A stretch of 64,000 nucleotides of DNA from Terramyces sp. JEL0728 (Eukaryota > Chytridiomycota > Chytridiomycetes > Rhizophydiales > Terramycetaceae): positions 1-64,000 of the forward strand of contig JADIIU010000056.1 in the NCBI GenBank assembly GCA_027603945.1. Reading direction: 5' to 3'. The first letter of the stretch is position 1; the number at the start of each line of letters is the position of its first letter. This document shows, in pieces, positions 8,253 through 61,237 of this stretch. The position numbers were made by a program, and so were the translations under genes. The notes under the pieces are model-generated. The model was not told the DNA's origin and made no database searches. It saw nothing but the letters and a program-made list of their open reading frames with translations.

Positions 8253-11200
8253 TTAAGCAATAATTGCAACGGATCTCTTGATGATTTCTGATCGCTTTGG
8301 GTGGTTACTAGTGAATTCAAAAAGGACATGTTGCCGGTGAGCATTGGAATAAATTGGAATTGCAACATTTCCTGCTGTACTTGATTGAGCCCAGTAGATA
8401 AACATTGCTCCAAGGTGGAATGGATTGACTTGGTCACTTAGTTCCAAACTGCCATTTACCAACGCTGCGCCTTCCAGCTTCATGTTGACGACTTCAAAAC
8501 ATGTGGTTTTTGGCTTATCGCCAATTGTGCAGTTCAGTTGCAAGTGTTCAAGCGAAACCCCAATAGCCTTTGAAGTATATTGTCTAGTTGCAGTCAAGAA
8601 CGCTCTAGGGTCAAACAGCGCTCCAATCGAGATTTTTGAGTGGATTGGTTCAATTGACTTTGAAATTTCATTTGTTTGTTTAAACTTCACACCAACTTCG
8701 TTGATAAAGGCTTGTAAGGATTTGAATGGAGTGCTATAAGTAATCCAGTGGGATGGAATCACACCTACATTAAAAATCAACTACTTTTCCCAATATCTTG
8801 CAGTAATGAACGAGAATAATTGGTTTGGTGTGTTTTTCCATTCAAAATATCCATTAATAACGCTAAATCGGATGAAATAGTGTCATGCAATGTTTTGGCT
8901 AACTTGAACTCGTTTCGGAAATATCTGCTTACAGAGTCATTGCCTTCAGTTCTGAATGAATCAGCAATCTTTGGGATTAAATCAAGCCATCCAACAATCT
9001 TGCTCTTCAGGGATGATTTCCATTGTACAACTTCCTGGTCAACCAATGAGTTTTCGATAATACCATCCAAAGTTCGAAGTTTGGAAAGGATTTCGAGAGT
9101 TTTCTTTTGCTTCATAAGCAAGTCTGCATCCTGGGACAACCCAATCCAGTTTGGTGGTTGAGACTCTTCCAGCTTGTTCACCCATTCTAAAAATTGGCTG
9201 ATTTTCACTCCTTCTGGAGTCACCAGCAGGGGCTGGCTCTTCAAGCTTTCCACCAGCTTAAAGTCGGCACTGTAAATTGCTGGATTCAAGAATTGATTAA
9301 TCAACGTTTCCAGCATTGTTTGATCAACCTTCCTATCAATCTTACCACCATAAACATTTTGAGAGAGCAGCATTCGTAAAGCTTCCCACGGAATAGATTC
9401 TGGTGCAATATTTGATCTTCCGTTGCTAGCAAATGCAAACCAAGTATCCAAAATCTTCACCGCAATATCGAAATCTGAATCGTTGAAATCATAATTCTTT
9501 GTCCAGCCAATAGGTAGGTAACGGACCCTCTCCAAAATCACAGAATGTACCCAGGCTAACATGAATAGTGCGCGTTGCTTTTCGATAGGTCCTTGCAGAT
9601 AGTTTCTGGAAATTGAATTCAAGGAGTCCTTGATGCACGAGCGAATTCCAGACGGTGGTTCAAAAATCATAATTTGTGAGCCCCTCAACAGGTTAACAGG
9701 TATACCTGGGTGAACTTCGCAAGTAATAAACAGTTTGAATTGAGGAGCCTGGTAACTGACTACTTTCTTTTCCAATGCTGATAGCCAGTGCAGAGATAAA
9801 TGAGCATTTCGGACAAGCACCCAAGAACCTTGCTTGGCAGCTTGAGCAATGGCGTTATCAGCGCTTTGAATACTTTCGTTCGAGCCCATTGCTACTAACA
9901 TCAAATGTTTGCCCTCTCCTGTTGCTAGTGATTCCACTCTATGGCTGACATCATATCCTTTGTAGTTGAATAAAATGGTAGGCTTGATTTTATATCCACT
10001 CGGCTGTGTTTCTTTCAGTAATGTCGAGAACTTCTTGTCGTTGTGATCCAATGTGAACAAAGAACCGAAAATTGATTTTAGATACCCCGTTACGGCGTCA
10101 ACGAATCTATCAGGTCGAATAGTTTGAATAATCAAAAGTCTCTGGAAGGCATTACATACACCTAGTATTAATTGCATTTACCAAGCGCACCAGACGATAA
10201 AACATTCAGCAATTTGTTTTCAGGAGCAGAATCGTCCAGTAATGACTTCCAGACATCAGAGTTCTGCAAAACTACGTTCGGAAGGCAATCAAAGACCGAG
10301 ATATTTGAAAGTTGATCAATTTTGATTGCCAGGCTATTACCTACAAGATCTTGTAACTCGGGATCAAACTTAGTGTGCACAATATCATGCCCTGAGGTCA
10401 AATATTCCCATTCATCTCCTTTCACTGCAACTTCACTCTTGATACGGGAAATCAAAAGCGCAAACACTGGCAAGTCTTCTTGGCGTAATGCAAATGATAC
10501 GCATTCGTAAACAGTGGTGAAGATGCTTGTTTCCAGCACATCTACTTTATCCTTTGGTACAGAGTCAGAAGCAAGTATTCCATCTACAATGTCAAAGAAA
10601 AATTCCAGAGAAAATGCATAGAAAAACTGTACACTGTGCAACTGTTCAATACAGAAAAATAGAGAAGAACACCTCTGTGCGAGCGGCTTGAATAAGGAAG
10701 TAACCGAGTCGACTTCAGAGAGAACTTGGGCTGTTTGCGATACCTTTTCAAGGATTTCTGAAGCCTCCTTTTTCAGATTTTCTAAAGAGTTCATCACGAC
10801 ATCATCATCCAAGATATTGCTCTTTGATTCATTCAATGAAGCAAGCAGTTCTTTTTCCAGGATATGGAGTCTCAACTGGAATTCGCCTTGAGCCTTGAGT
10901 AAGTCTTTTCTCTTCTTTTCAATGTCTGCTCGAGCCGACTTCATAAATTTATCCAAGCATTGTACTGTCAAACTTCCAGGGGTAACTGTAAAGTTGACAA
11001 ATGTCACTCGGCTGCAAATATCCGGAATAAATTTGACTAACGGGTTCTTTGTAATCATAAATAGCATGAACGTTGATGAAAAGTCAATTTCCTTCTTACC
11101 AAGTCTAATCAAGTTTCTTCCACCGCTCTTCCAAACTTGTTTGTTTAAGATTGGATTCAGAATTGGGTCGTAATCTTCCGCATCCTGAATGATAATTGGA

Positions 11201-14200
11201 CTGCCAAACCGCAGTGCACTTTCCAAGTTTTTAAGGAAGGCAGCGTCTCTGAAACTCGTAACAACAATGTTCTTGGCCTTGTATAGGGATTTGAGATATG
11301 AAAGAGCTTGGTTAGATGGATCGATTATCAATGGATATCGTTGACTTCGCTCCATAATAACTGCATTTTCCATGCATAGGTCATCCGCAGGCAGCGAGTT
11401 AACTATCCAGTTGTTTCTTTGCTCTGCCGTGCTGAGATAAGCATAAATTGACAGCTGCTCGTTAAATTTGATACCAGATGCACTTAGCTTTGATTTCCAA
11501 TTTCCAGTTAATTGGTGACGTGTTGCCTGATCAAAGTAGCCTGCATAGGATAAGAATGCTGAAGCCAAAATACTATCTCCAACTAATGTTTCCATTTGAA
11601 CACCAAACGTTTCCCTAGATTCTGTCCACCGTTCTCGTTCAGAGGACAGGTTTTCAACTACACTCAAAGATCTTCCAACTCTTTCTTTGACACCTTCCAT
11701 TTCCTTTTTGAGGCTGTGAACTTCGCTAATCAAAACAGCGTATTCATCTTTGTAAACGTTAATGCTTTTCTCAAGTTTGACAATCAACGCTTCCATTTCA
11801 CGAGCTTTTTCCTTTGTTTCGCTGGCACTTTCTTCTAACTGTTGCACTTCAGCACGAAGTGGTTCCACTTTTTCTAAAATTGAAGCAAAGCTGACCTGCG
11901 CAATAACCCACTGTACCAACGGCCCACACGCTTTGCTTGCCCGGTTTACGGCTTCAAAGTTGAAGTTTGGATCGCTCAGGTAGTTTGTAGAAATATCATC
12001 TCTGATTTTCTGTGTAAGTTTTGAAGTATCGTAATGGACAATATTGGAAATGAAGTCATCCTTTCTCAACACTGCTATAACACTCTTCCATGAGTCAACC
12101 TTATTCCCTAAAAGAATACAAACAGCTTCCATTGTCATTTTAACAACAGCTGGAGGGTTCTGCATGGAGCGCACTTCCGTCAAGTGTTGCTTTTTGATAT
12201 TGCTGACACTTTGTTGAGCTTCAATTACTGCAGGTTCAGCCTTTTCAAGATCGGCAACGACAATTTTCTTTCTTTCTGCAATTTCAATGTCCTTTACCTC
12301 GAGAGACTTTTGAATGTGCACCGAAGCGGCTCGATTGTTCTCGGCTTCTTGTTGGTCTTCAACCATCTTTTTCAACTTTTCGTTTGCTTGGGCAGTTTTC
12401 AGTTCCAATTCTTTTTTCTTTTCTTCCAAGCTTACCCCTAATTCTTCAACCTTTACCAAAGTCTCTCGTAGCCTTTCCAGGCCGACAATCAAGTGTCTTT
12501 GGCGGTCTTCTAGTTGCGACCTCTTTTCCTGGTAAATCGTGCAGAAGTTTGTGACAAAATCAATATATTGCCTTGGAGTGATGAAAACATACTTTTTTTG
12601 TTTTTTGACACTAATTGAGTGATTAACTTGTTTCGAACAACCGTGTATAAAAATACAAGTGTCCAATAGTACATTGCGCAATGAATAAGGCTTGACAATT
12701 TCCGAGTATAGAGGCTGGAAAGTTGGTGGACATGTATAGCTTTGATCAATATCCACGAGCTCTGTAAATTCACTTGCAACTTGATAAAATCCTTGATTAT
12801 TCCAATCACCCATCCAATTTAGCACACATCTGTTGAACAAGGCTGGAGATGTAGTTGCTTTGTTTGAGAGTTCCCCTTCCGGTGGATTCATAGTAAAGAT
12901 GACATGCAAGTTTTTCGCGACCTGTTTGGTAAACCAGGCATAGAGCTCATCATGAGTATCTAAAGCCAATCCTTCCCTGATGGATACTTCCTTGCATGAA
13001 GTCATCAAAGAGGTAAATTCATCCCCTTCGAACAATCCAGGAATTTCTGCATTTGCCAGTAACGTATTGATTCTTTCCAAAAATGAAGAATCCATCACAT
13101 TAGCTTCGTCAATGATAAAGCAAATCTTTTCCCCTTTGCATCCAGATCTCTTGAGCACAATCCTCAAATCGTCATCAAAATCTGATATGGAGTATTTGCT
13201 CTCCATTGCAGGCTGGAAAACTGAAATACCATTCATCCAAGCGACAAACCGTGTCAATGTAGATTTTCCACTTCCTGAAATCCCAATTAGGAGCAGGTGG
13301 CCTTGGATTTGGTGGAACACTCTGTCGATACGAAGGATGTGTTCCAAAGCATGCTCAAACAGGACCAGTGGAACTTCAACTTCTTCTTCGTAGAATACCT
13401 GCAGCCGTGCTTTGATATATTGCGAGAGAGCAGTTGCATCTGTGGATTCATAATCTTTAGAGATAAAGTTTGAGAATAGAATTGGTCGTGCGAGAGCTAC
13501 GACAATGTCCACACCAGGGAAATTTTGAGCAGCAGTTCTTTGTAGCAAATCGTCGGACCAATCTTTTTCGCCATCATCAACCAAACGATCTTGGAACAAC
13601 CTGATACCTTCGTGTGCCCAAATTCTAACCAACTCTTCAATTGAAATAAATTCCAACGAATGGATAATTTCATAAATTCCTCTGATCCATCTTGTCAGTT
13701 CACGCGGTGAGAAAATGTAATGTGAATGAACATCTGCTGTAAATTGAGTTTTAGAGTTTGTGTAGAACTCTACCATTGCGTTAGTCAATGCATCCGCATA
13801 TCCGCGCAAAGCAGGGTGTGCCTTCAGTGCGGCTCGACTGAATGCTGAGTAAATAGTTTGCAGAGAATTTTGTTCTGGATATCCAACATATACAACTGGG
13901 CAATGGCGCAAGAATCGGTTGCTGAGAACAACTCTGCCCGGATCAGTTGGTGGGTTGCAAGCACCAATAATCTGCACTCTTTCAATGGTAACCCAAACTC
14001 TGTCTGATCTCCAGAATCCTTTTTGCTCAATCATCTGGCGAATGAGAGAAATAACTTTTTGAGTCCCGTACTTGTCAAGTTTGGGCAGATTGATTTCATC
14101 ACAAAATAGTACCAGCCATCTTCCGGGGTTCTTTGGCATAAACACCTCGCCATTTGCTGATTTTTTGTACTGTCCATTAACTTCCAATGTACGAATAATA

Positions 14201-17200
14201 GATTCGCAATTGGTTTCACTGGAAAAGTTGATTGGAATCACATCTATTTCTGGTAATTTTCTCAAGGAAGAGAGCAGAGTCATTGTCTAACGTGAGATAT
14301 TAAATACCTTTCCAGACCCTGGCGGGCCACACAGAATTACAGATTTGTGTTCAGACAACCAAGCGTACAAAATCTTTTCATGCCGCAAAGTATCCAAAGT
14401 AGGAACAACGATATCCTGTCTTGCAATGTTTTGACGATCAATATCAATAACTGGGACCATTGACGACCAAGAAACATAGTCCGGAGTGCCAATATCAATA
14501 TCGTATTCAAACACAGAAAATCCATCTGTCCCAATCTGCACACTGCCAGATCTATTCAAAAACTCACCAAGTTTTAATCGGTCATCATTATTGACATCTC
14601 CGCCGAAACTCCAGCCTAAATGAATATAGAACGATTTCAAGACATAATTTTCCAGCTGGTCTGGAAGAAGAGGGAAATCGAGGTGTGTAGAGTCGTATTC
14701 CAAAATTGACTTGACACTCGAGTTCAGCAGAGAAAACAAGTTTTGTAGACCCCTGATAATGGTAAATTCCATAATGTGTGATAAAGTTTGGGAGAAATCA
14801 ATGGCGAGCTCCAGAATAGCGCCTGGAGCAAAGAGTGGTTCAAGTATATCAGCTACTTGGCGCTGAGAAATAGAGATTTCTGAAAACTTTAGTTTTGTCA
14901 AATCAATGTCATAAGTTGCAGGCATTTCATCTACAGGCACATTGTGCAACATGTTCAAGTAACGTTTAGAAAGCATATTGACTGAAACCATAGATTCAGG
15001 AAACCAGACCATTCCACATCTACTAACGGTAGCCGGAGTAGCTTGATCCAAATCTTGGACTTCAAACATAATTCTGACATTTGGTGGCAGCGGAAGACGC
15101 TCACCATTTGGTAACGTCAACATTTTGTTGTCATCTAAAACAGAGTTCAAATTTTCAACCCATTCTGGATCAACATCTCCATCGAACACAATCCAATAGC
15201 GTTTCGCGCTTTCGCCTCTATCATCTGTCAAGACTTTACGGATAATTTTTGTAAAAATGCCATCTGTCCATTCTCTAGTCGTAGAATCCATCCAGCCATA
15301 CAGTTTATCTTTGGATATAGCCTTTGGATCTATAATATAATGGCGGGATTCCTTTGCTTCGCACTTTTCCAATGCTTTCAACAAAGTTTTCCAGGCAGTT
15401 GATTTACCAGTTCCAGATTTACCGACAACCATAACACCATGGTTGATTTCTTGGATACTGTGGAGCTGTAGGACTTTTCCCAGCCAATCTTGATCAGGAA
15501 CAAGCATCAACTCTTTACAACATTCTTCCAATTCTAGCCTGAGTCTTGTATCGCTGATTTCGCCTGTTCTTGCCTTGGAGAATATATCATGCAAGAGTCT
15601 ATTTTAAAAATCAATTACGTTTCAGCAAGAACAGCATCTTCTTTGATCAATTTAGGGAAAACTGTATCCTTGATACTCTGCACCAAAACTACTTCTTCAA
15701 GAACATCAGTTTCTTTTGAACTTTGGTTTTGTCTTTGAATTCGACCGGCAGAGACCAAGACACTCTTGAGTGCTCTTAGCCCAAAATCATAATGGGGCTG
15801 GTTGGATAATTGCTCGCTGCAGATTTCAAAGAATGGAATAGCTTTCGAAGCTAGACTTTCGGCTTCGGCAAATCCTTGGGAGAATAACATTACTTGAGCA
15901 ATCAGTAATCTGTCTGGGATTGTCATTGAGACCCCTCGGAATAACGAGGTCAAATTATCCGGCAGCGAGGATCTACCAGCGTACCCAGGGTTCATCGTAA
16001 TGAAAATACCAGTAGACGGGTTTACTTGCAATGATTTACCAACAAGTTCAATTTCTTTTGACGATTTAAGCCCAACCTGGATAGATTGTATCTGTTGAGA
16101 AACAGCAGAAAGAATCTTTTCTTCAAGACGATTGAATTCATCAAAACAGCCCCACACTCCAACCTTGCATAGCCCAATAAAGATCCTACCCATAGATTGG
16201 AAATCAAAGTTTTCATCACAACAGAAAACAAGGCATTGGCGACCTAGTTGCGCTGCCATCGCTTTGACACTTTCAGTCTATGTTAGTCAACGTTTACTTT
16301 TCCAGTTCCAGCAGGACCGAAAGGAGAACCGCCAAGTTTATTGTCTAGCGCTTGGGAAAGAGTCAAGTAACATCGGTCAGTCAACGGTGTTTGGACCAAT
16401 CGATCATACACACCAAGATAATCGAATCCATAAGTAAACGAAGCGCTAGCAATCTTCACCACCACTTGAGAATCCTGCATATAAAACCTCATATTGGATA
16501 GCCAGCTGAAATCATTTATACTGGAAACTTTAGATTGCAACAGTGTTCTTGTAACATCTCTCTGATGAACCATTTCAGTAATCAATGATTCACACTTTTT
16601 CCTATTGAGGTATTTCAAGTCCTTTACTACAAATTGCGCCAGTAAAGAGATAATTTCGGAAATATTGGACAGCAAGTCATCCATTTTACCATTCTTCACT
16701 GCAATTTCGGTATTTTCCGTCCATTTGTATTGGGCAGTAAGGATTAGGATTTGTGCAGGGTACTGATCAACCCACTTTTCCAATTCCTCCAAGTGCATCT
16801 TCTTATAACTTCTAACACAAGATTCAAATGAATTGAAAAGTGCAAGCCTAGTTTCCTCTTCGATTCTAGTCAGCCATTCATAAACTCGGGTTTTTGTACG
16901 ATCAATTGGATTGGCAAAAGTGATAATTTCGCCTTCGGGAGATGAAACCCCTAGGATATTTTGCTGTTCGTCGTCAGTCAATACTCTAGTAACAGCTGGG
17001 AAGATTTTCTTTAAATGCGGCTGGATACGATCTAGATCTTTAGAGTTGCCCAAAATTTCCAACAAATCTTCATCAGCAACAAAATAGAATCGCGAGAAGT
17101 TAGACCGTTCTCGTTCAAGGTAATCACCTAAAGACCGCTGAATGCCAGACAATAATTCACCTAATCGAGCCATACTCTGTTGAATATTTGGGATAAGGAT

Positions 17201-20200
17201 TACTTCAATGATCAACGGTGATTTGTAGACTTTGCGCATCATAGTCATGAATTCAGCGTCGATCGAAACAAATCTATTACTTTCCAACGGTAGAATTTGC
17301 TTGATTTCCTGGTTCCCAGAAAAGATACCCTGAATGTACACCCACTGCCGTTGAACATTGATCCACAGATCTAGCAAAGTCAATATTTTTGAAAGGCTAT
17401 CCTCCAGCTGCATTGCTTCGTCTTTAAACGCTCTGTAATGAACAGAATTCTTCATGGCAGTAAGTGCAGCTAAATGATCCTGGCATTTTGTAAACAAGTC
17501 ATCCCACCCTTTCACTAATCTACACTTGTTTTGGAAATTGGTAAATTCAAGTGAATATTGTGCCCAAACGGATTTGATTTGTTTCAGGTACTCTTCAAGT
17601 GCCATTTCGCCTTGGGCTAAACTTATGATTTCTTCTACTTGCTTTTCCTTCTTTTCGTAGTTGACTTGCCATAAAGTACCAACTTTTAACGAATTTGTTT
17701 TTTCAATTGAAAGGATAGTATTGATTCTAAGCCAATGACGTTCACGGAGAGATTCGGATTTTAACGGAAGCATACGCAAGTGCTTGGATAAAATACCGCT
17801 GATTTTTTGGTACATTGATTGGTAGGCCAAGTATTGCCGGGTTTGATTTGGCATACTTTTCATATTCTCCAAAATCTTTTCAACCATACCTTTAACTTGC
17901 CAACATTCTTCACCAAACCACGAAATTTCGTGAATCTTTAATATTTCATCCCAAACTTTTTCTAGGGATTCCCATACTCTTTTCAAATCCTGGTGTTCAG
18001 AAATTGCTGGCGCAAGTAGTGAATTGCTAAAACTCTTGATTTCAAGTGCTTGCTTGGCTTTGCCAAGTAATTCAAAAGTCTTGTTGGTAACAGTGAATTT
18101 ATGTTCAAACTCGTTTAAAACTTTCAATGCTTGTGCGGGCTCTTGATCTCCAAGCGGCTTGAGGTTATTCCAATCTTCAACCAGGGTAGATATCTGGTCA
18201 TTCGTTGCCTGATCTTCTTGAACAATTTTCTCTTTTAACGGTTCAATTTGGTCTTGGATTAATCTGGTTTTGCGCTCCAAGATTTCTTTGAATGCAGAAT
18301 GTTCACCATTCACTTGGTCATAGTACAGCCAATCCTGTGGGAATTTATATCTTTGACGTTCAAGAATACGCTGACCGTTATAAAACTGCTTCATTTTCAA
18401 ATCAAAATTGGTAGTTTCATTGCCCAGTTCTTGAATCAACAGTAAAAAGTTTACCAGATCGTGGGTTGTTGAATAAGCCAAATTCTTTTCCAAAGATTCC
18501 CGATAGTTTTTTAAATCAGAATAAAACTGCTGCATTTTTTGCAACAGGATAGTTGAAAACTTGTTGATCAAATCCCGTTGCCAAATATCATATTGTAGAT
18601 TGACTTTTTGTTGGACATTGCCATATTCAATCGCCAAACCTCTAAATTCTTGTCTTGTTTCCGTTGTATCAAATGTGGACCGCACTCTCTTGACATCCAG
18701 TAGCGTATTACACCACTTTTGCAAATCATCGCCGAGTGTATCAAATACTGTCTGTGGTTCCAAGTCCCAAAGCGACTGATATTGTAGCCACTTGTCAACG
18801 TACAAACTCAAATCATTGTACAAGCTATCAATGCATTCAAATGCTTTCACCAAATCCTTTGGATCAAGTTTAGATACAAGGTTGAATGTCTTTTGAGTCT
18901 GTTTTTCAAAAGAGAACACTTTGATTCTAGGCAACAGTGTAACAACAGACAGCAATGTCTGGAATTTTCGTGTCCACATTGCTTTCGCACTTTCCATTGG
19001 TGGATTCAAATAAATTGCCTGGTTGCGCATCTGGATTGAATAAACTACTTCGGTATCAAATTCAATATTCCCAAGATTCCAGCTCTTTACCGCTTGGCCA
19101 AGTCTACTAAACAAAACATTTTCAATTCTAGCATCTAATCCAATAATCCATTCATTCAAGTTGCTGAAACTTTCAAACGCAAGTAAATCAACATTCTTTT
19201 GTATCTTGTCCATAATAACAGATAAGACTAGTTGCTCATACTTGCAATCTTCAAGTTCGCTGATCAATGAATCAATTTCGTTCGTTTTTTGTAAGGCTAG
19301 ATTGATTTTATCTTGGAATTGGAATACCGATTGAGAAAATTCACTAACGAATTCCACATACCGTCCTTCATTGTTTTCTTCATACGTATTGATAAAGTAG
19401 TCCCATTGCAGTTGGATCCCTTGTTGAACCAGAGTTTGAACTTTGAGGTGGAATTCACCGACGAGCAACCCGACTTTGTCAACACTAATCAAACACTTTT
19501 GGTAAATCCGAAGCGATTCATTTAAAGAGACTGCAAATGGATATACTTTCTTGCTATCAAGAGACGCATTCTGTATTTGCATTGGCACAGAGTACCCCAT
19601 ATTCATCAAATTTCGTACTTCCTTGAACACAGATATACTCTTTGAATCAAAATTGATTCCCAGCTCCAATTTGTTTAATAATCTGTTTTTGGTGATTGTG
19701 AATATTCGTCCACCTATGAACGCTCTATTCATTTCCTCGTTTAACCAAGTTTCAAATAAAGATGAAGTGTCGAGCTGTTTTTGGAATGACATTTGTTCAT
19801 TGTATAGTTTCTGTCCTTCTTGGTATTGTTCCCAGCCTTTACCGAGGATATACTCTACTTTTTTCATTAATTCATTCAATTGCCGTTCAATCATTTTGAT
19901 CCAGAGTAGATGTCCGGAAAGTAAAGGCACATCTCTTAGTCTAGTCAATTGCGAATCGTCGCTATTTTCATACCTCTTCATGAATTTCAAATGCAATTCT
20001 TTCAGATCTTCCTTTACCTTTTCAATCAACTGGCTTTGGTACTCACGAATCGCACCTCGGATTTTAGGTCGAACAAATAACGCATTAAACTTTGAAAAGA
20101 TCCGAAACATGTCGTTTGCAGTCTCACATGTTCCCAGCAAATCTTTTAAATTGGAAATAATCATTGATTCTACTTGGGAAATGTTTGAATTGTAGTTTTG

Positions 20201-21658
20201 TTGCGCAATTTGCCAATTTAAAGTCCCTTGCTCGGATAAATCCAAAATATCAATATGTTTAATATGATCAAGTGCTCGAAGGACTAATTCGGTTGAATCA
20301 GATATTCCCAGGTCTTGTTTTCCGCCAGTTATTTTCTTCAAAGTAGTTGATAATTGGTCGTGCTGGACCCGGAAATTGTAAATAAAATCCAGTCGTTCTT
20401 CTAGTAATTGATGGTACTTTTCTACTTTGACTGGAATCAATTTTTCAACGCGCTTTCGAAGTAAATCCCTATGGTTAATAAATAAAACCTTCCGATTGAA
20501 TAAAATTCTTTAATGCTGTCTTCCCAAGTGCCAAAAATCTTTTTACATTCTTCAATGACAGTTTTGAATTCATTGATTTCTAAATACATGAGATTCTTTT
20601 GTTTTAAAATCAGCAAAATCTGATTGTTCACATCGCGGGAAATAGCTTCTAATAGCAATAATGTCTTTTGTATTGGATAAGGTGCTAATTTGAGTTTCTT
20701 GTTGACATGGTTGAAAATTGCAGATACAGAGTCGTTTACTTTTTGCAAATCAGTAGAAGAGAGCAACTCATTGACTGGGAATTCCTTGAACAGAACATTG
20801 TATTTTGTCACTTTTTCAATCGCCTCCTTGATTCCAGTGTCTGCAATGAACCTATCGTTAGCAATGTCCTACCTAATAGTCAGCCAAAGAAATACCTATA
20901 ATTAGAAGCTAGGGTACCCTACGGTAGCATGAAATCTTTTAGCTTGTTTCAATATCTCCAATGTCAACAACACCTTTTCATCATTCAACTGCATCTCAAT
21001 CAAATGCAAATGCCGCTCCATCTGAATCCAAAACTCAATCTCATTCCTACTATTATCAATAATCTGATTTTCCAACAATGTGACTTTATGAATTTCGTTT
21101 ATCCATATTTTTACATCTTTTTGGATTGAATTAAGAAAAGTGGTGTCTTGTAATAGGTTGTCGAATGGCTGCTTTTGTTCTGCCAGTCCAACTATGGTTG
21201 GATTGAATTTCAGTTGGATATCTGGTATGTTTACTGTTTGCTGCGATTGCGCCAGTGATAATTCCAGCTCTGCTAATTTCTTTATGGTTTGCTTATCCTT
21301 GTCTTTATTAATTCCAATGTACCTGGAGATTAGTTGGGTGTACCTGGAGATTAGCCAATCTAATACCTGGAGATTAATCACAAAAACCTTGAATAAAATA
21401 CGGAGTGATGGCATAATGCAAGTACGAATACAATTCCTTTTCATTTGGCAAATTCAAAAACAAGAATTCATTCTTTGGATCATTTTCCAATCCTCCTTTT
21501 TTAATAAAAACAATCGAATCTGGAATTGGTTTTACTGAAGTTTTGTCTTTTGTAGTGTAAATACTTTTAAGTGATTGGTCGGTTAGGAAATCTAAAAGAA
21601 TTTCCTTTTCAATTGGGTTGAATGTTTTGAAATACTCGTAGTAGATTTCAAAATCCAT
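8253..21658 (-). CDS. DYNC1H1: Cytoplasmic dynein heavy chain, complete, 9 exons
   Basis: Minus-end-directed microtubule motor. The spliced frame gives 4377 aa, normal for cytoplasmic dynein-1. In order: N-terminal tail ([18 protein letters not shown] is a dynein signature); linker; AAA1 P-loop GPAGTGKT (about residue 1725); AAA2 GKSGTGKS (about 2010); AAA3 GPPGSGKT (about 2375); AAA4 GISGSGKS (about 2720); stalk coiled coil; AAA5-6; and the C-terminal domain. Exons (minus order): 21388-21658, 20918-21302, 20489-20851, 16298-20468, 15619-16277, 14308-15598, 10182-14286, 8785-10161, 8253-8764. Six introns are 20-21 nt. The first two gaps (85 and 66 nt) each break into consecutive mini-introns. 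Two introns fall immediately before or inside the final Thr of a P-loop. Stop codon and AATAAA overlap. Confidence 0.95.
20852..20917 (-). other. Tandem array of three mini-introns in dynein
   Basis: On the minus strand: 20896-20917 (22 nt, GTACCC...TCTAATTATAG), 20873-20895 (23 nt, GTATTT...CTGACTATTAG), 20852-20872 (21 nt, GTAGGA...CTAACGATAG). Every unit has a GT start, a branch-like motif and a TAG end, with nothing left over. Removing all 66 nt joins HATVG to [10 protein letters not shown] exactly as in the dynein family. Confidence 0.75.
21303..21387 (-). other. Tandem array of four mini-introns in dynein
   Basis: On the minus strand: 21367-21387 (21 nt), 21344-21366 (23 nt), 21323-21343 (21 nt), 21303-21322 (20 nt). 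The first three all end in TAATCTCCAG, so they look like tandem copies of one intron. The fourth ends in TTAATAAAG. Removing all 85 nt joins [10 protein letters not shown] to [14 protein letters not shown] in phase, as expected for dynein. Removing only the first three gives the wrong frame. An alternative donor further upstream (after AIT) with retention of unit 4 would also keep the frame. Confidence 0.7.
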
Positions 21659-24304: not shown

Positions 24305-25426
<1,122 letters not shown>

Positions 25427-59513: not shown

Positions 59514-61237
59514 ATGAACGACCAAGTAGACTCTCTAGATACCCAAGAGAAACTAGAACAAATTACTGAAATCGCAACAGAGCTATCTTCGGTAGCCCAA
59601 GAACTCGACACCCTTTCGTCCTCTGCTGGCGAAATCCAACAAGCTGCAATCGAAGTTACTGAAATCGCAAAGGAATTATCTTTTGATTTTGATGATGAAT
59701 CAGTTGAATTACAAAATGTTGCCCAGGAATTAAACCGCGTTGCACAAGATAGCCTTGTAATTGGCGAAATCGTTGGTGAAATTAAACAAATTGTTGATGA
59801 ATTAGATACAATTAAAGGTACATTTGATTTGATTTAGATGAGCAAATTATTATTGAAGAAACTTATGTTCAAGCTACAAAGGAAATTGAAGCTCATGAAC
59901 AACGCAAAGTCAAAGTAGTAGAAACTGTTCAAGAAACGCCAGTCGAGCCAGCTACTGAAGCAGTTGTAGCGGAACTAGTCGCTGAAACAGCAGTTGATCA
60001 AGCAGCTGAAGTCGTGAACGAAGAGCAACCAGTAGAAACCGTTGTAGAACCTGTCCAAGAATTGGTAACTGAAGAAACAGTAGCGGAACAAGTCACTGAA
60101 ACTGTCCCAGAGCCAGCTGAACAGAAAGTAGAAATGCAAAAAGCAGTATTTGAAGAAGCCACTACCATTGAAATTGTTGAAAGCGAGCAACATATTGAAA
60201 CTCGTGAACTTTATGTAACACAGGACGTAGCAGGGGAAGTTGAACCGGTAGTCGCTGAATCGGCTGTGGAAGAAACTGTTTCTGAACAAGCAAATGAGGA
60301 ACAGATAGCAATTACAGAACAAGAAACAGTTGTCATTGAATCTGTCCAAGCTGATGTTATTGACGAACTTATTCACGAACGCGTTACTGATGAATCTGTC
60401 CAAGATGATGTCATTGAAGAATCTGCCCAAGATGTTGTCAATGATAAGGAAGTTGTAGAAGACATTCAAGATATAGTTGCTGACGAACACACTGAAGACA
60501 ATGATGTTGATGAAACTCCTGTTGAAGAAACAGTTCAAGATATAGTTGCTGACGAAGCTGTCCAGGATGTTGTCAATGATAAGGAAGTTGTAGAAGACAT
60601 TCAAGATATAGTTGCTGACGAACACACTGAAGACAATGATGTTGATGAAACTCCTGTTGAAGAAACAGTTCAAGATGTTGTTGACGAAGAATCTGAAGAC
60701 GTTCAAGGTATTGTCGTTGAAGAAGTATTGGTAGAAGATGTAGCTCAAGTCAATGTTGTCGAGAAAGTCCTTATTGAAGAAGTTGTTCAAGGCAATGTCG
60801 TTGACAAGACTGATAGTGAAGAAGCAACTCAAGAACATGTAGAGATGACTGCTGAACAAACGGTCACAGAATCTGTTACCGAACAGGTAATCATTGAGGA
60901 ATCGGTCATTGAAAAATCTGTAGTCAAAGACGATAAAGTTATAACAGTAGAAGCAACCCAGGCTGGAGAAACTACCACTGAATCCAATATTAATGAAGCT
61001 AAAGCGGTAGATATCCAAAGTTTAGAATCTATTAACAACCAAGAAAAAGATGCTGAAACCGTTCGTGAAGTGGTAATCGAAACCGTTTACGAACAAGTAC
61101 CAGAAATCACCAAACCGGAAGCTGCTGTATTGCTAAACACCTCATCCACCTTAGATATTATAGACGACGAAACACATGCAGCTCCCGAAGTAAAACCTCA
61201 AGCAGCTCCATCCTATGGAAGATGCCTCATTCTCTAA
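59514..61237 (+). CDS. Acidic Val/Glu-rich repeat protein with CaaX box
   Basis: 567 aa after a 20-nt intron GTACATTTGATTTGATTTAG (59818-59837). The N-terminal 100 residues are helical heptad-like sequence (ELSSVAQELDTLSSS). The rest is an extremely acidic, Val/Glu/Gln-rich low-complexity region. A 45-residue unit (containing DVVNDKEVVEDIQDIVADE) is repeated. The last four residues are CLIL, a CaaX motif with terminal Leu that predicts geranylgeranylation and membrane attachment. An in-frame ATG at 59394 would add 40 residues. I prefer 59514 because homology-like helical sequence starts there, but this is uncertain. No known family recognised. Confidence 0.7.
60431..60676 (+). repeat. Direct repeat, two 111-bp copies with 135-bp period
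   Basis: 60431-60541 and 60566-60676 appear identical by eye, within the acidic repeat protein. The period is a multiple of three, so the frame is kept. Lack of drift at synonymous sites suggests recent duplication or gene conversion. Confidence 0.8.

Follow-up and report, generated by a model that had tools for sequence, protein, structure and literature searches.

How do four introns come to stand in a row in one gene with no exon between them, and how would they leave the transcript? The question is raised by 85 nt in the cytoplasmic dynein-1 heavy chain gene of the chytrid Terramyces sp. JEL0728 (Terramycetaceae). The window, that is, the whole stretch of DNA analyzed, is 64,000 nt long and belongs to contig C56. 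The first-pass annotation had divided the segment at 21303-21387 (minus strand; array A) into four units of 21, 23, 21 and 20 nt, and this division is exact. On direct reading, all four units start with GT and end with AG, as it had stated. The three joints are AG|GT, the juxtaposition of acceptor and donor that is seen in recursive splicing. The common tail that it had noted for units 1 to 3 is also present (TAATCTCCAG). These three units share their tails only, and unit 4 differs, ending with TAATAAAG. The gene and the units are as follows, with scores from a weight matrix of 120 introns.

8253..21658, minus strand: cytoplasmic dynein-1 heavy chain gene, with arrays A and B and further single introns of 20-21 nt
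21367..21387, minus strand: array A unit 1, 21 nt, GTTTTTGTGATTAATCTCCAG, weight-matrix score 6.5
21344..21366, minus strand: array A unit 2, 23 nt, GTATTAGATTGGCTAATCTCCAG, score 5.2
21323..21343, minus strand: array A unit 3, 21 nt, GTACACCCAACTAATCTCCAG, duplicated in the copy on contig C37, score 8.2
21303..21322, minus strand: array A unit 4, 20 nt, GTACATTGGAATTAATAAAG, score 9.5
20469..20488, minus strand: single ordinary dynein intron, 20 nt, for comparison

The claim that only full removal fits both the frame and the dynein sequence stood in its first part. Among the 16 possible splice subsets of array A, the removal of all four units is the only one with zero stops before the next intron site; each of the other 15 has at least one in-frame stop. 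If single GT-AG removals are considered, 13 keep the frame open. One is the removal of the full 85 nt, and the remaining 12 delete exon residues or keep unit residues. The second part of the claim is not carried by the printed alignments, in which dynein homology does not span the array. Full removal rests mainly on the frame, because the human dynein alignment begins just 3' of array A (query residue 92 or 95). For a different cytoplasmic dynein, two rows begin earlier, at residue 87, and would include the array.

The introns of the species were surveyed in a genome of 15.0 Mb (231 contigs), using a 264-kb sample made up of the window and a further 200 kb drawn from 20 additional contigs. Gaps with GTA...AG ends between coding flanks show a length peak at 19-22 nt in this sample. 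At these lengths, there are 93 gaps with GTA...AG, while each of five control end pairs has between 10 and 28. The consensus of the 120 training introns is a GTA donor, TRAY, 2-3 nt and AG. TRAY starts at position 11-12 in 100 of these introns and is 2-3 nt from the AG in 109, a branch spacing that depends on their selection for TRAY near AG. A Viterbi gene finder, with short introns limited to 17-27 nt and optional introns of 28-200 nt with GTA donors, yielded 163 genes and 269 introns in the 264 kb, and 263 of the introns are 19-22 nt long. No intron of 28-200 nt was parsed, even under a milder penalty, in this coding-model parse, whose scope is coding sequence and GTA donors. With control end pairs, the number of such introns was 1, 0 and 0. 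The finder overlooks some introns, such as an apparent one of 21 nt left in topoisomerase I. The RAD51 gene in the window supports the method through its protein match.

24305..25426, minus strand: RAD51 gene, with five single introns (19-21 nt) that support the intron size of the species by homology

With these five introns removed, a solved RAD51 is matched over 328 residues (E 1.9e-174). In the 264-kb coding parse, the genome falls among ultrashort-intron genomes, in which the whole intron population lies at about 15-25 nt, and for the sampled part this documents a fungus whose introns are nearly all 19-22 nt. Because about 20 nt is the normal intron size here, each array unit is considered to be one complete ordinary intron. 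The first-pass reading of the array A units as complete introns with a branch-like motif agrees with this: each fits the species consensus, with the GT...AG ends and the TRAY at species spacing that mark U2-type spliceosomal introns. The units score 6.5, 5.2, 8.2 and 9.5; in the training set, the median score is 9.5 and the 5th percentile 3.1. With normal introns of about 20 nt, the unit size becomes less exotic, and the arrays become more telling as a phenomenon.

An Rfam search of the window gave no match. A genome search for U1 snRNA gave no match, and 14 control genomes likewise gave none, so this search does not bear on the absence of U1. A sulfate adenylyltransferase in the window shares 94% identity with its Boothiomyces macroporosus counterpart across 89% of the query. 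The window also contains a frame for a DDE superfamily endonuclease (Pfam DDE_1), probably a transposase, at 408-1562, and a coding-like tandem repeat with periods of 27, 66-69 and 135 nt, apparently rich in acidic codons, at 60388-60700. Ciliate-style DNA elimination was rejected as a less simple account of the units, which match the single GT...TRAY...AG introns of ordinary fungal genes. That the standard code yields sensible proteins also disfavors it.

Array A is one case of a genome-wide pattern. Four strict joint patterns gave 51, 30, 30 and 30 matches in the whole genome, against 2, 4, 5 and 0 for the reversed patterns (141 against 11 in total). The strict matches correspond to 128 places on 80 contigs. 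A looser joint pattern showed a weaker contrast (21 matches against 9 in the control). Chains of abutting units were also scanned with the intron weight matrix on both strands of the 264-kb sample, at thresholds 4, 6 and 8. At threshold 4, four chains were found, with 4, 3, 3 and 2 units, and units in these four arrays score as low as 4.7; Markov-1 simulation gave no chains and the reversed sequence gave one two-unit chain. At thresholds 6 and 8 there is no excess, with one two-unit chain in the sample against 1 and 0 in the reversed sequence. The chain excess in the sample is seen at the lower threshold only, and the genome-wide patterns are the stronger test. Internal exon lengths in the gene-finder parse of the 264 kb include six of zero and one of 8, and the next is 30. 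Since the lengths jump in this way, zero-length exons form a separate class and not the tail of short exons.

Array B, which the first-pass annotation did not contain, lies in the same dynein gene at 20852-20917. It has three units and two AG|GT joints.

20896..20917, minus strand: array B unit 1, 22 nt, score 7.8
20873..20895, minus strand: array B unit 2, 23 nt, score 4.7
20852..20872, minus strand: array B unit 3, 21 nt, score 9.2, no in-frame stop

Full removal of array B gives a gapless alignment of a 14-residue stretch to KRFHATVSFDTDTG of human cytoplasmic dynein 1. Removal restores the frame at array A, and at array B and others the conserved protein is restored by homology as well.

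A second copy of the dynein region is found on contig C37, where 121 of 9,919 aligned bases are substituted and 17 indels occur. Among the indels is a complete extra unit 3, identical to the neighboring unit, so that array A has 4 units in the window and 5 in the C37 copy. This is the one array at which variation in unit number was observed. The earlier proposal that array A multiplied by tandem duplication is supported by this extra unit and by other arrays; duplication within array A is directly visible for unit 3 only. The donor of array B unit 3 (window 20852-20872, and L006) is GTA in the window and GTG in the C37 copy. If this unit were retained, seven residues would be added, and it is a possible variable site.

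C37 and C56 may be related as two uncollapsed haplotypes or through a recent duplication. Both are kept because genome searches with an exon of Hook and a stretch of PSMA6, meant to reveal further copies, returned their own locus only. On eight contigs (C3, C4, C18, C26, C36, C37, C44 and C86), there are two near-identical array joints each, about 7-62 kb apart on the same strand, which suggests recent segmental duplicates or haplotypes joined in assembly.

Beyond the C37 dynein copy, which was left out of the list, 21 arrays with 84 units were read out. They were hand-picked, mostly from pattern and chain matches. Seven weak or overlapping chains were dropped (L029+ 1937, L029- 2468, L032+ 1908, L035- 2158, L039-, L041+ 2305 and L043- 2242), and the arrays on C8 and C12 were listed without their weak leading units. 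The units are 19-25 nt long, and the longest arrays have eight units. Most arrays were harvested by patterns demanding intact internal joints, which place the rate of joint decay outside their reach; since the patterns require such joints, the intactness of inner units in these arrays is partly a selection effect.

Full removal restores a conserved protein at seven arrays, namely, those in dynein (array B), PSMA6, topoisomerase I, Mgm101, Hook (two arrays) and peroxidase. In PSMA6, removal of four units aligns without a gap at the site. The deposited PSMA6 of Terramyces sp. JEL0728 is 100% identical over 86% of the spliced protein predicted here, and its model reads directly across the array. 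A stretch near the N terminus that is present in relatives is missing from the deposited protein (P0122 versus P0121, P0123 and P0124), and by this comparison of sequences the public gene model seems wrong near the N terminus. In topoisomerase I (L023, C17), full removal of three units is gapless against solved structures at the array site; the third and last unit was kept by the gene finder and was removed manually on homology. This protein also has a 7-residue insert relative to solved structures, which looks like a missed 21-nt intron without an in-frame stop. In Mgm101, the domain match spans the four-unit site (profile positions 4-170 of 170). The Mgm101 array (L028, C4, minus strand) and the exon downstream of it both begin with GTTCC, as a small target duplication or a tandem duplication would leave. 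In the peroxidase, with two units, the Pfam match spans the site (profile 1-237 of 237); this match was used as comparison with solved structures at the strict cut-offs of 1e-100 and 1e-95 gave no rows.

The Hook-like gene on contig C128 has arrays of 7, 3, 8 and 3 units, and a gene nearby on the opposite strand has one array of 8 units. When the Hook-like gene is fully spliced, the HOOK_N match covers the 7- and 3-unit sites, and the alignment is gapless at both. The first eight-unit array on this contig contains five identical 20-nt introns consecutively and one weak unit (score 1.8). The locus (L043, C128:20700-23400), with five arrays and 29 units within about 1.7 kb, is a hot spot of intron duplication. 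Two further arrays of five units each, in genes that presumably encode a PI-synthase-like protein and an SPX protein, rest on frame and on this resemblance and were excluded from the seven; the PI-synthase-like piece has no Pfam match, and the SPX match is split into three stretches. On the minus strand of L029 (C12), in a gene that we take to encode FG-GAP-like repeats, an array has four units or more, the last of which starts with GC rather than GT.

The same data bear on whether the units could be partly exonic, as a coding minisatellite or as alternative micro-exons that some transcripts retain. Unit 3 of array B, whose 21 nt contain no in-frame stop, would suit this, and the gene finder kept it in the C37 copy, as it kept the third topoisomerase I unit. 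Against this stand the array lengths, which are distributed over the three frames (8, 6 and 7 of the 21 hand-chosen arrays have a length of 0, 1 and 2 modulo 3), as expected for non-coding sequence. The stops in 15 of the 16 splice subsets of array A and the solved-structure relatives, which lack any insert where array B and the PSMA6 and topoisomerase I arrays lie, point the same way. A partly exonic nature is considered very improbable. The coding minisatellite in particular was rejected, given array lengths in all frames, stops and gapless homologues.

The reading that we consider probable is that each unit is a complete spliceosomal intron, duplicated in tandem and most likely excised singly. 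In size, the unit would belong to the one class of introns that the sample contains, of which nearly all are 19-22 nt. Tandem duplication of an intron of about 20 nt would produce AG|GT joints, at which the copies abut with zero-length exons between them. The spliceosome is apparently restricted to about 20 nt, and the units would be excised one by one. Each excision would leave a row of complete units and recreate a donor or an acceptor at the exon edge. Any order of removal, or a skip from a donor to a distant acceptor, would give the identical mRNA, so that gain or loss of a unit would be invisible in the protein. Duplications should then be harmless, or nearly so, and accumulate, and the unit number would drift like that of a minisatellite.

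Since the mRNA would be the same, the route of removal has to be judged from other evidence. Array A could be removed in one step: the first donor would pair with the last acceptor, all 85 nt would leave as one intron, and the inner units would be an intronic minisatellite carrying decoy sites. The same protein would result, and the deposited PSMA6 model, which crosses its array, is compatible with either route. Most eukaryotic spliceosomes handle 85 nt easily. In this species, however, the 264 kb contain 0 introns of 28-200 nt against 269 short ones, and the distance from donor to branch is 11-12 nt in 100 of the 120 training introns, a selected set. In several arrays, moreover, the units diverge yet keep their ends and branch-like motif, which is partly a selection effect. 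One-step removal is considered unlikely. The lack of any longer intron in the parse and the almost constant distance between donor and branch favor unit-by-unit removal, which we infer to be the likeliest route.

The origin of the arrays was approached through the similarity of their units. Nine pairs of adjacent units, in four of the 21 arrays, are identical, and 15 of the 63 adjacent pairs, in seven arrays, lie above the 99.9th percentile of between-array similarity. In the other 14 arrays, no neighbor pair is more alike than units of different arrays; these arrays are either old or formed another way. Independent insertions would give such arrays too, if the units were dispersed mobile introns, similar to introners, that were repeatedly inserted side by side. 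The genome was searched for two unit types with up to 3 mismatches. The first was found in the dynein arrays only. The second was found five times in its own array, with four 3-mismatch matches elsewhere; all four have a broken GT or AG end, and a control pattern gave one match. Neither type has an outside copy with both GT and AG intact, that is, the dispersed similar copies that characterize introners, and a mobile introner was rejected for these two types. Runs of three to five identical neighbors also argue for local duplication, and repeated insertion of mobile introns is hardly a probable source. Identical neighbors, together with the lack of usable copies of the two tested unit types elsewhere, point to the origin of arrays by local tandem duplication, as judged from the unit sequences.

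A wider proposal is advanced with moderate confidence, below that in the tandem-intron reading itself: that splicing here follows a fixed ruler of about 20 nt, that up to eight abutting introns are excised singly, and that introns behave as minisatellites, with replication slippage altering their number at more than 100 places. If true, zero-length exons would be a normal gene structure in this genome, and arrays would be spliceable at any unit number and in any order. The arrays are a natural repeated test of intron recognition. Exon definition is inapplicable at their joints because neighboring introns have no exon between them; whatever pairs donor with acceptor there must lie within the intron, and is probably its length. 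With the arrays, the order of splicing and the shortest lariat geometry could be measured in vivo. A way for introns to multiply while the protein stays the same is also suggested, and differences in unit number between copies would make the rate of duplication measurable.

A literature search, with subscription papers mostly outside its scope, found no arrays of complete tiny introns and no chytrid introns of about 20 nt. The comparisons below draw on parts of the cited papers. The closest likeness in the joints is recursive splicing at ratchet points, where AG|GT and zero-nucleotide exons are described in Drosophila and human (PMC8605326; PMC10156609). There as here, an acceptor abuts a donor, and each excised segment leaves a new donor at the edge of the exon. 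Recursive sites mostly subdivide long introns, with medians near 550 kb in two human sets, and lariats show some of them in introns under 1 kb, where conventional splicing dominates (PMC10156609). Array A, in contrast, is 85 nt in all and has no long host intron, and each Terramyces segment is a full intron of about 20 nt, the normal size of the species, with up to eight in succession. Human UBC has a tandem array of dual-specific AGGT sites, each usable as donor or acceptor, which the authors connect with tandem repeats and the creation of introns (PMC10809524). The UBC repeat is a coding ubiquitin monomer that is variably kept, whereas in Terramyces a complete, non-coding intron is repeated, and every copy has to be removed.

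Stwintrons (spliceosomal twin introns) of fungi are also complex intervening sequences composed of several intron units, and they are removed by consecutive excision reactions, with one step or two usable in Lipomyces starkeyi (PMC7138796, PMC8469720). They are nested: one of the outer intron's splice elements is interrupted by the inner intron, which leaves first. The Terramyces units are each complete and uninterrupted and they abut, so they are not stwintrons; unlike in stwintrons, any order of removal would work.

In size, the units resemble the ultrashort introns, about 15-25 nt, of four other organisms. Introns are 15-16 nt in Stentor, with a tightly placed branch point (PMC9505925), 23 nt in Trichomonas (PMC12316389), and about 25 nt in Paramecium and Nyctotherus (PMC5014332). 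The words "tandem" and "recursive" have 0 occurrences in the main texts on Stentor (PMC9505925) and Trichomonas (PMC12316389). These hosts are ciliates and a parabasalid, whereas Terramyces is a fungus, with back-to-back joints at about 128 places.

The last comparison concerns the gain of introns. In the tandem-genomic-duplication model, a stretch of exon is reportedly duplicated and yields one intron. Intron gain by this route (PMC4974935) is similar to the case of Terramyces in that a tandem duplication gives rise to an intron. In Terramyces, in contrast, it is an existing intron that would be duplicated, repeatedly and without exon gain.
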